Assembly (NCBI GenBank): GCA_016778985.1
Contig: JADHOM010000001.1
Coordinates: 1-64,000, forward strand
Length of the DNA: 64,000 nt
Source of the DNA: Alphaproteobacteria bacterium
GTDB lineage: Bacteria; Pseudomonadota; Alphaproteobacteria; Puniceispirillales; UBA1172
Direction: 5' to 3'
In this document: positions 41,943 to 44,937 of the stretch, one piece after another
Layout: every line of letters begins with the position of its first letter
How positions within the stretch are numbered: the stretch's first letter is position 1
Position numbers and translations under genes: made by a program
The notes under the pieces: model-generated
Databases searched by the model: none
Told to the model about the DNA's origin: nothing
What the model saw: the letters and a program-made list of their open reading frames with translations, nothing else

Positions 41943-42461
41943 TTAAGCTGCATCTACCGCATCAACTGCATTTGATACGGCAAGCGCGAGATTGTCAATC
42001 ATTTCTGAAATAGGAGCATCTTTTCCTGCCACCACAACATGATCATCAACGCAGACATGCGCATCATGATCAGGCGCTACATCACCAACCAGATTAAGCG
42101 AGGATGCTAAATCAACACCGCCACCGATCAGCAAAGATGGGGCTTTCTCACGCAGGAAGGCGGCAATAATACGCTTAGCATGGCTATCTGATAATAGCGC
42201 TTTAAGGTGCTGATCACCGTCAGGGATAATCATGATATCATAATCAACCGCTAAGGTTTCACGCCAGACCCCGTCAACCGGATAGGATAAACCCCATTGC
42301 TTTCCTGCCCAGCCATTAATCAATCCATTTTCTTTTGAAACCATCTTTGCCTTAACGCCTGCCTCATTAAGCTGTTTTTGAAGATTAATCAAAATGCTTT
42401 CATCAAAACCATGTGTAACAAGTATAGCAGCAGTTTTTCCTGCCAACGCCGGAAGCGACAT
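41943..42461 (-). CDS. DJ-1/PfpI-like protein lacking the catalytic cysteine
   Basis: A 172-residue class I glutamine amidotransferase-like fold, similar to PfpI/DJ-1 and to the C-terminal domain of large catalases. Start: ATG at 42461 (MSLPALAGKTAAIL) with GGAG 7 bases upstream; a GTG two codons earlier is less likely. YDIMIIPDG and LLIGGGVDLASS mark the fold. Where active PfpI proteins have a nucleophile Cys followed by His (CHGP), this one has GGG, so protease, glyoxalase or deglycase chemistry is not expected. The only Cys is in HVCVDD. It may be a binding or structural protein. Function unknown. Confidence 0.75.
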   Translation of the reverse strand: MSLPALAGKTAAILVTHGFDESILINLQKQLNEAGVKAKMVSKENGLINGWAGKQWGLSYPVDGVWRETLAVDYDIMIIPDGDQHLKALLSDSHAKRIIAAFLREKAPSLLIGGGVDLASSLNLVGDVAPDHDAHVCVDDHVVVAGKDAPISEMIDNLALAVSNAVDAVDAA

Positions 42462-42692
42462 TCTCACTCTCCATCAAATAATTGTAGCCCGGAGAGGAGA
42501 ACTTACCTCAATCCTTCGGCTATCTGTGATAACCACCTTGATATAGGCCGGATGATCCAAAATATCAATAGCCTGATCTTTCGTTTGCTCTTTACCATGA
42601 TGATGCTAGCGTAGGAAAACCCATGCTTTATGTGTTGAAAAATTATCCCAGAGGATCAAGACTAAAAGAAAAAAATAAATTAGATAATAGTA

Positions 42693-43511
42693 ATGCAACT
42701 GACCAACTTATATCCGGCAAGGCGGGTTTTTGAGATTATCCTTGTAGTATTTTTACCCCTGTTGGTTGGCTGCGGGGGCGGAAATGGGACTCCTTTTTCC
42801 GCCCCACCTCCACCTGATGTTAGTATCTCTGATGTGACGCGAGCAAGTCAGCTTCAGGTTGATAATTTATTCGCCAAACTTAACGGTGATGGTGACGGCT
42901 GGATCACCATTATGGAAAGCGATAGCCTTAATATAAAACTAGATGGTGTGACCGATGATAATGCTATTGGGGCGATATTGCGAAAATTACCTCCTATTTC
43001 CGAATACGCGACGGCGAGCATTACTAATCAATATTCGCGTTTTGGTTCGATTTATTCGCATCTGTCAAGGCAAGCTGAGTTCCCGACACGGCTTGTTATC
43101 TGGGGGCATCAGGCATCATCCTTGCCCGATCATGATATTTCTTACGAGATGACTTCGCTGTGGAACTGTGTGGCTTGTAGTGGCGCCTTTGAGACGCGGA
43201 CAGGAAAGGCAACAGGCACTTTAGAGCTGATTTTGGATAGCCAAGAGGCGACGCTTAATTTGGCTGGTGATGGGTTAGATTTATATGCCCCGTTGCTGAT
43301 AAATAAGGATATAGCGTTTCGCCCTAATGGGGACATGCAGCTTAAGCTTGATGAAGTTACTCAGCCGCTAAACAGACAATTCGTTTCCGGCACTTTATTT
43401 GGAACAGATGCCAGCGAGGCCGGCATGATTATTGGCCTAGAAACCGATCAAGGCGCTTTGTTTAGTATTATGGCGCTGGGGTCTGAGAGTGACCCATCCG
43501 CCACGCCTTAA
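42693..43511 (+). CDS. Lipoprotein with EF-hand loop and TbpB-like barrel
   Basis: A 272-residue predicted lipoprotein: hydrophobic signal to about residue 26 with lipobox LVGC (C27 lipidated), then a Gly/Pro-rich tether. Residues 64-75 (NGDGDGWITIME) match an EF-hand calcium loop (ligand positions 1, 3, 5 and 12 filled, Gly at 6, Ile at 8). The C-terminal half (about 130-265) is beta-rich and ends in VSGTLFGTDASEAGMIIGLE, similar to the barrel repeat of transferrin-binding protein B and other Slam-type surface lipoproteins. C159 and C162 are a further pair. It probably sits on the outer membrane. Ligand and function unknown; no TonB receptor gene is next to it. Confidence 0.7.
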   Translation: MQLTNLYPARRVFEIILVVFLPLLVGCGGGNGTPFSAPPPPDVSISDVTRASQLQVDNLFAKLNGDGDGWITIMESDSLNIKLDGVTDDNAIGAILRKLPPISEYATASITNQYSRFGSIYSHLSRQAEFPTRLVIWGHQASSLPDHDISYEMTSLWNCVACSGAFETRTGKATGTLELILDSQEATLNLAGDGLDLYAPLLINKDIAFRPNGDMQLKLDEVTQPLNRQFVSGTLFGTDASEAGMIIGLETDQGALFSIMALGSESDPSATP

Positions 43512-43539: not shown

Positions 43540-44937
43540 TTATATCCCCAATGATCCGTAGCTAGAGACAACGCGCTCAATGGCAATTTTCATGGCCGCC
43601 ATGCGCATATCTATAACCTCCGGATTGGCATTCCATTCCTTGCTGATATCTTCATAGGCTTTTCGCATCGTATCCTCTAATCCTGAGCGCACGAGGGTTA
43701 GTTCAGTTGATCCACTTAGGGCTTGCTGACGATAGTTATCAGGGAAAGATTTTCCAGTGATCATTTCAACGCCATTAATGATAGCACTAAAATGGTCAAA
43801 GTTTTCTCGTCTTTGCATGCGGCCAAATCTGATATGACTCAAGTTTTTAATCCACTCAAAATAACTAACCGTCACCCCACCCGCATTGGCATAAAGATCA
43901 GGGATAATCACTACACCCTTTTGGTTAAGGATACTATCAGCCTCTGCCGTGATCGGGCCGTTAGCCGCCTCAATGATCAAAGGCGTTTTAATCTGGCCAG
44001 CATTGTCTTTGGTGATCACCAATTCCATCGCCGCAGGTATCATAATATCAGCATCTTCTTCGAGCATCTCAAGCCCGCTTTCAACAAAGCCTTCATAGCC
44101 TTCAGCATTGCCATGAGTATTCAAATGATCTTTCAACGCACGAATATTGATACCATCTGGATTAACGACACAACCGCCGCGTTCCAGAACATGCGTAATG
44201 ATGGCGCCGTCTTCTTCGGATAAAAACAATGCCGCGTGATAGCCAACATTGCCTAACCCCTGAACAATAATCCGCTTATCCTTAAGCCCTGGTGCCAGAC
44301 CTGTTTTCTTGACATCATCAGGATGATCAAAAAATGCCCGCAACGCATATTGAACCCCGCGGCCTGTCGCCTCAACACGGCCTTGAATACCGCCCTTGCC
44401 GACAGGCTTGCCAGTCACACATGCCCAGGCATTAATCTCAATCGTATTAAGGCGGCGATATTCATCTGCCATCCACGCCATTTCACGTTCGCCAGTTCCC
44501 ATATCGGGGGCGGGAACATTCTGCGATGGGCTGATCAGGCCACGTTTTGACAGCTCTTGGGTAAAGCGGCGGGTAATGCGCTCAAGTTCCTGTTCTGTCC
44601 AGTCAAGCGGATTGATATAAAGCCCGCCTTTTGAGCCGCCAAACGGCACCTCAACCAAAGCGCATTTAAATGTCATCAACATGGCTAGGGCTTCGACTTC
44701 TTCCAACGACACATCGAGGCTGTATCTAATGCCGCCTTTTACCGGTTCGAAATGTTCACTATGGACAGATCGGTAACCCGTAAAGGTGTGCATAGCCCCG
44801 CGCAACCTAACCCCAAAGCGGACAATATAAGACGAATTGGTTACTTTAATTTTTTCCACCAAACCCGGTGCCATAGGGACAAGGTTAGCTGCTCGATCAT
44901 AAACCTCTTCTACTGACTTAAGAAAATCATTGCTCAT
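43540..44937 (-). CDS. Glutamate dehydrogenase (Glu/Leu/Phe/Val family)
   Basis: A 465-residue NAD(P)-dependent amino-acid dehydrogenase, most likely for glutamate/2-oxoglutarate. The substrate-site segment is EPVKGGIRYSLDVSLEEVEA, the catalytic lysine lies in LVEVPFGGSKGGLYI, and QNVPAPDMGTGEREMAW is the conserved dinucleotide-domain approach. The NAD loop is VQGLGNVGYHAA. The start has a strong GAGGAG site. It is not the large 180-kDa type. Coenzyme preference cannot be read. It is divergent from the MFS transporter (120 bp). Confidence 0.93.
   Translation of the reverse strand: MSNDFLKSVEEVYDRAANLVPMAPGLVEKIKVTNSSYIVRFGVRLRGAMHTFTGYRSVHSEHFEPVKGGIRYSLDVSLEEVEALAMLMTFKCALVEVPFGGSKGGLYINPLDWTEQELERITRRFTQELSKRGLISPSQNVPAPDMGTGEREMAWMADEYRRLNTIEINAWACVTGKPVGKGGIQGRVEATGRGVQYALRAFFDHPDDVKKTGLAPGLKDKRIIVQGLGNVGYHAALFLSEEDGAIITHVLERGGCVVNPDGINIRALKDHLNTHGNAEGYEGFVESGLEMLEEDADIMIPAAMELVITKDNAGQIKTPLIIEAANGPITAEADSILNQKGVVIIPDLYANAGGVTVSYFEWIKNLSHIRFGRMQRRENFDHFSAIINGVEMITGKSFPDNYRQQALSGSTELTLVRSGLEDTMRKAYEDISKEWNANPEVIDMRMAAMKIAIERVVSSYGSLGI

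Follow-up and report, generated by a model that had tools for sequence, protein, structure and literature searches.

What kind of lipoprotein is encoded by the ORF at 42693..43511, and is calcium any part of its work? From its letters, the window (the whole stretch of DNA that was analysed, 64,000 nucleotides) had been described as carrying here a calcium-responsive surface lipoprotein, with a lipobox, an EF-hand-type loop and a C-terminal TbpB-like barrel in that order. Here, we will argue for a different reading, to which we give a probability of roughly 0.6: the product would be a single-lobe binding lipoprotein of the TbpB fold, pinned by a disulfide and working without Slam, with its fold, disulfide, location and binding role all read from sequence comparison. 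The features concerned are collected in Table 1.

Table 1. Positions of the lipoprotein gene, of the parts of its product (P0001) and of its neighbours in the window
Feature	Position	Strand	Basis
Lipoprotein gene, 272 aa (P0001)	42693..43511	+	Homologues in 17/136 genomes of the order; dN/dS 0.13-0.19
Signal peptide and lipobox, Cys27, residue +2 = Gly	42693..42773	+	Read by eye
N-terminal handle-like part, residues 50-146	42840..43130	+	Weak: hhalign score 20.9 alone
NGDGDGWITIME, residues 64-75, originally predicted EF-hand loop; not conserved	42882..42917	+	Pattern and alignment, 17 homologues
TbpB-like C-terminal part, residues 147-264, approximate bounds	43131..43484	+	hhalign score, PDB profile matches
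WNCVAC, residues 157-162, invariant CxxC (C159, C162)	43161..43178	+	Alignment of 17 homologues
GTLFGTDASEAG, residues 233-244, last-hairpin signature of TbpB barrels	43389..43424	+	Alignment, PDB profile
DJ-1/PfpI family gene, divergent, conserved neighbour	41943..42467	-	PF01965, synteny
Glu/Leu/Phe/Val dehydrogenase gene, convergent, neighbour in the window's genus	43540..44937	-	PF00208, PF02812, synteny

The ORF is a real gene. Four pairs within the genus gave dN/dS values of 0.16, 0.16, 0.13 and 0.19, and the lipoprotein is therefore under purifying selection. The predicted lipobox holds up well: when read by eye, the hydrophobic signal peptide closes in LVGC at C27, and both C27 and G29 are invariant in the alignment of all 17 homologues. 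Sorting to the outer membrane is what we would presume from the Lol rules. The NCBIfam lipoprotein anchor model is matched by 11 of the 17 homologues (best E 0.0026), with P0001 itself at 14.6 bits, short of the cut-off of 37, and was not used as evidence. Upstream, within window positions 42440-42692, the string ATCAATAG is conserved in all six aligned upstream regions of the genus and is possibly a promoter or operator.

P0001 was matched at E<=0.001 in 17 of the 136 genomes of the window's order, and these 17 supplied both a full-length profile (A1) and a profile of the mature part (A3). Some sequences required curation: in-frame leucines served as the starts of L012 and L014, L011 was truncated ahead of a run of N, four residues of L016 and one of L018 are unreadable, and G006 is represented by L018, whose product is 100% identical. 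The mature-part profile found the same 17 genomes strongly and six more (G107 among them) weakly or partially; these six, with E values from 7e-5 to 0.6, were left out of the carrier count. Among the 17 homologues, identity to the window protein drops to about 20%.

In the wider class (385 genomes, A1, E<=0.001, at most six candidates scored per genome), 13 genomes gave a match, two of them from the order. The 21 matches in the other 11 lie near the lipobox only, all ending by position 116 of the 266 in the profile and 15 of them at or below position 60; because none reaches beyond the early part of the profile, they were not counted as homologues. At least four of the 21 share their ORF, as judged by contig, strand and ORF length, with a PF01298 match. 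At the sensitivity used, the family looks restricted to the order. A search of contigs added one relative, L018, from a SAR116 cluster bacterium MAG, and a search of viral contigs gave five pattern matches, none of them a relative. Among the published titles that we compared, on SAR116 lipoproteins, Slam/TbpB or ynjBCD, none names this family.

The gene can be lost. G107 retains a decayed remnant (L074, 1501-1608), a C-terminal stretch with a stop inside it that lies between the FolE and DJ-1 genes. G011 (L148), a one-contig genome from the window's own genus, has no match to the lipoprotein gene; there, the dehydrogenase gene directly adjoins the methyltransferase gene, and DJ-1 is also missing from that place.

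The calcium part of the original prediction can be dealt with by asking whether the loop is shared by the homologues. The letters are there and are locally unusual, in that a relaxed loop pattern of our own writing occurs once in the 57 ORFs of the window (20044 aa), in P0001, but position 1 of the loop is N and the strict PROSITE pattern for EF-hands is unmatched. Among the homologues, the strict pattern was found in 0 of 17 and the relaxed one in a single case, the window's own. In the sister species, at 85% identity, the Gly at loop position 6 is already R (G69R); in the next two homologues, positions 5 and 6 are both K, and the others show PP, EA or nothing alike. What is more widely kept is [DE]-x-D-[SN], beginning at the last residue of the loop, which we counted by eye in 13 of the 17. 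Since the loop is not conserved, the EF-hand was dropped.

That residues 64-75 bind calcium and thereby control a TbpB-like barrel, giving a calcium-responsive surface lipoprotein, is accordingly highly improbable. Besides the rarity of the loop pattern in the window, one can cite in its favour weak PDB matches to a putative calmodulin and to calsensin (both at E 1.5) and a hit at E 0.058 against the model of a calcium-binding effector. Against these stand the altered loop, the missing Slam match discussed below and the result of the Pfam search, in which P0001 matched no family at E<=10 (the HMMER filters discard most matches above 0.1). What the protein shares with EF-hand proteins is a 12-residue look-alike loop in the window protein only, which looks like a quirk of a single species with no part in the best reading; the pattern of conservation takes the calcium story off this lipoprotein.

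The barrel was assessed by comparing profiles. Searched against PDB sequences, A3 matched ten distinct entries, all of the TbpB type, at E 0.0033-0.0095, and the next match was at E 2; with the signal peptide in the profile the best E fell to 4.1e-5, which we consider an overestimate of the significance. The match covers the end of the barrel; upstream of it, the alignment to the TbpB handle is collinear, although its HMMER score is below zero bits. When A3 was aligned by hhalign to ten PF01298-positive lipoproteins, hand-picked single-lobe ORFs from other Alphaproteobacteria that score above the PF01298 cut-off, the probability was 94 and the score 56.9 over 165 columns (E 1.3e-7, a single-pair value). 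A reversed profile scored 12.9 and a decoy of Slam barrels 11.8, the latter drawn from 10 of 20 loci with frames set by a simple overlap rule. None of 200 global shuffles (maximum 17.2) and none of 200 local ones (maximum 21.6) reached 56.9. The ten partners come from a TbpB-like set of which 29 of 30 loci were read (L104 was omitted); many of these ORFs are cut by the ends of the DNA, and L102, whose frame as read looks wrong, is outside the ten.

Dividing the protein gives a more cautious picture. Residues 147-264 scored 38.3 against a maximum of 19.1 in 300 shuffles, and residues 50-230, from which the last hairpin is omitted, still scored 25.9 against 18.8. We therefore grade the homology to TbpB as well supported by the profiles at the C-terminal hairpin and moderately supported elsewhere, in view of the 25.9 reached without the hairpin, and yet also of the 13.9 for residues 147-230 alone, which is inside the shuffle range, and of the one-by-one comparisons, in which just four of the ten TbpB-like proteins score above 30, all of them from two genomes in the same genus.

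Pfam gives no verdict by itself, because T2SSN is matched as weakly (by three of the 17 homologues, best E 0.0055) as PF01298 (by two, best E 0.005). P0001 does not reach the curated cut-off of PF01298, the homologues' matches would likewise lie below it, and at E<=10 the window's own genome has no PF01298 match. The predicted barrel is backed by sequence profiles and draws no structural support from AlphaFold2, whose models, made with two sequences per run, had pLDDT values of 31.0 and 34.7, too low to inform on an eight-stranded barrel or, in the first model, on a helix-loop-helix at the EF-hand-type loop; the second has an all-beta look at a confidence too low for use.

Compared with the PF01298 barrels known from TbpB lobes and alphaproteobacterial lipoproteins, the window family has the lipobox, the last-hairpin signature around G-x-x-F-G...G and the collinear profile match in common. 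It differs in that the window protein has no Pfam match, has one lobe and carries an invariant [WFY]xCxxC, and in the near absence of Slam from its carriers. The window lipoprotein is, on these comparisons, a somewhat unusual relative of the TbpB-like proteins. At the margin of the family, the barrel end of the profile weakly matches L075 (1501-1734; G113, E 9.5e-4) and L076 (1501-1674; G112, E 0.05), within ORFs of 992 and 1068 aa from genus g16 that are possibly larger barrel-bearing proteins.

The cysteines, which the original prediction did not bring up, deserve separate attention. In 17 of 17 homologues, the pair in [WFY]-x-C-x-x-C comprises the only cysteines read after the lipobox (L016 and L018 have the few unreadable residues mentioned above), and alignment to TbpB-like proteins would put it near the first barrel strand. 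A structural disulfide between C159 and C162 is the simplest explanation and the most likely one. One might instead propose that the motif is a working thiol pair on a TbpB-like scaffold, engaged in metal binding, possibly at a site between two molecules, or in thiol-disulfide exchange. The conservation of both the CxxC and the preceding aromatic residue, despite identities down to about 20%, speaks for such a pair. So does the rarity of the motif elsewhere: only three of the 29 PF01298-type ORFs read have a CxxC, and the one with an aromatic residue two positions before it (L110) has the motif ahead of its likely start. Against it, a structural disulfide accounts for the same conservation, and the alignment has neither a further invariant Cys nor an invariant His with which a metal site could be completed. 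We consider the working pair distinctly unlikely. The broader proposal built on it, a SAR116 family of TbpB-fold lipoproteins that does without Slam and uses the first-strand thiol pair as its working site, for example as a thiol- or metal-binding envelope receptor, is unlikely too; if it were true, the TbpB fold would also serve outside the type 11 secretion system.

With the structural disulfide, the preferred single-lobe binding lipoprotein can be laid out as follows. Cys27 would anchor the protein in the outer membrane; next would come a short linker rich in proline, then a variable, handle-like region (about residues 50-146) and finally a C-terminal barrel of eight strands (about residues 147-264). 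The first predicted barrel strand would end in the CxxC, whose disulfide, formed in the oxidising envelope, would pin the first hairpin. Without enzyme activity, the protein would hold a small ligand or a partner protein.

Where it does so depends on Slam. PMC5449769 describes TbpB-like surface lipoproteins as existing together with a partner Slam, and attributes a predicted eight-stranded barrel to all predicted Slam-dependent lipoproteins. The window sequence suggests the handle-plus-barrel plan that PMC5449769 and PMC12282271 give for Slam-dependent lipoproteins and type 11 cargo (TbpB, LbpB, HpuA and fHbp). According to PMC12282271, a survey of T11SS loci, members of marine cluster 3 are rarely beside a TbpB-type barrel (8 of 145 loci).

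The remark in the original prediction that neither Slam nor a TonB receptor lies beside the gene was correct for the six neighbours scanned, and for Slam it extends to the window's whole genome (listed as 98.63% complete), which has no PF04575 match at E<=10. The model does work elsewhere in the class, where 42 of 385 genomes match. Within the 136 genomes of the order, Slam was found at E<=0.001 only in G002, which is one of the 17 carriers and has three such matches (L131-L133). By comparison, 22 of the 28 PF01298-positive genomes in the class sample have PF04575 (Fisher p 1.7e-6 against 1 of 17, for genomes that are related and a sample that is not independent). Draft genomes are incomplete, and Slam may be missed in them.

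A protein exported to the surface by Slam, or by a Slam-like translocon that escaped detection, and paired with an unlinked TonB-dependent receptor is doubtful for this family. The barrel described for the predicted Slam-dependent lipoproteins in PMC5449769 and the matches in G002 are in its favour, as opposed to 16 carriers without a Slam match while the positive control worked, and neighbours in the window that include neither partner. The NCBIfam model 'Slam-dependent surface lipoprotein' was matched by one of the 17 homologues, at E 0.013, and this match was likewise set aside as evidence.

Because no Slam was found in the window's genome, the binding lipoprotein proposed here would either work at the periplasmic face of the outer membrane or be exposed by another route. 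We favour the periplasmic face, and this location is less certain than the fold and the binding role. A conserved TbpB-like family in ocean bacteria that are almost devoid of Slam would reveal other settings in which these barrels operate, and raises the question of whether they do so inside or outside the outer membrane.

The neighbourhood offers a further candidate role. In 15 of the 17 carriers, including the window, the DJ-1/PfpI gene either adjoins the lipoprotein gene or has nothing but the ynjB-like and ynjC-like genes in between. The exceptions are G118, with the lipoprotein gene close to the end of a contig, and G083, in which we recognised no ORF for DJ-1. Beyond the DJ-1/PfpI gene is a homocysteine methyltransferase gene. 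In ten carriers the DJ-1 gene itself is the directly divergent neighbour of the lipoprotein gene, and in five (G001, G002, G003, G119 and G120) the ynjB-like gene takes that position. YnjB, YnjC and YnjD are names that we have assumed for the neighbouring ABC genes; in NCBIfam, the ynjB-like product is an ABC transporter substrate-binding protein, and the others have only generic ABC matches. On the far side, carriers in family f4 have FolE and a TrkH-like protein, which in genus g17 come after an ABC ATPase. In three loci of g17 (L031, 7442-12160; L032, 7327-12126; L033, 333-2064), the lipoprotein gene either flanks parts of a YnjBCD-like ABC cluster or falls among them.

One could therefore picture an outer-membrane helper of a YnjBCD-type ABC importer, passing its ligand to the substrate-binding protein. 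The five carriers in which the lipoprotein gene is directly divergent from substrate-binding-protein and permease genes span three genera and two families, and in G118, G119 and G120 an ABC ATPase gene follows it in the same orientation. The link to YnjBCD is nevertheless weak, because the substrate-binding protein occurs in 108 of the 136 genomes of the order, most of them without the lipoprotein; moreover, the window genome's own copy is on contig C38, with no such lipoprotein within 1.5 kb on either side. This role is quite improbable.

In three genomes of genus g14, which have no window lipoprotein gene, L150 (10962-11198), L152 (726-962) and L153 (12002-12358) encode, close to FolE, small proteins in which a CxC...CDG(S/T)H repeat occurs twice and which we take to be of the CDGSH iron-sulfur type.
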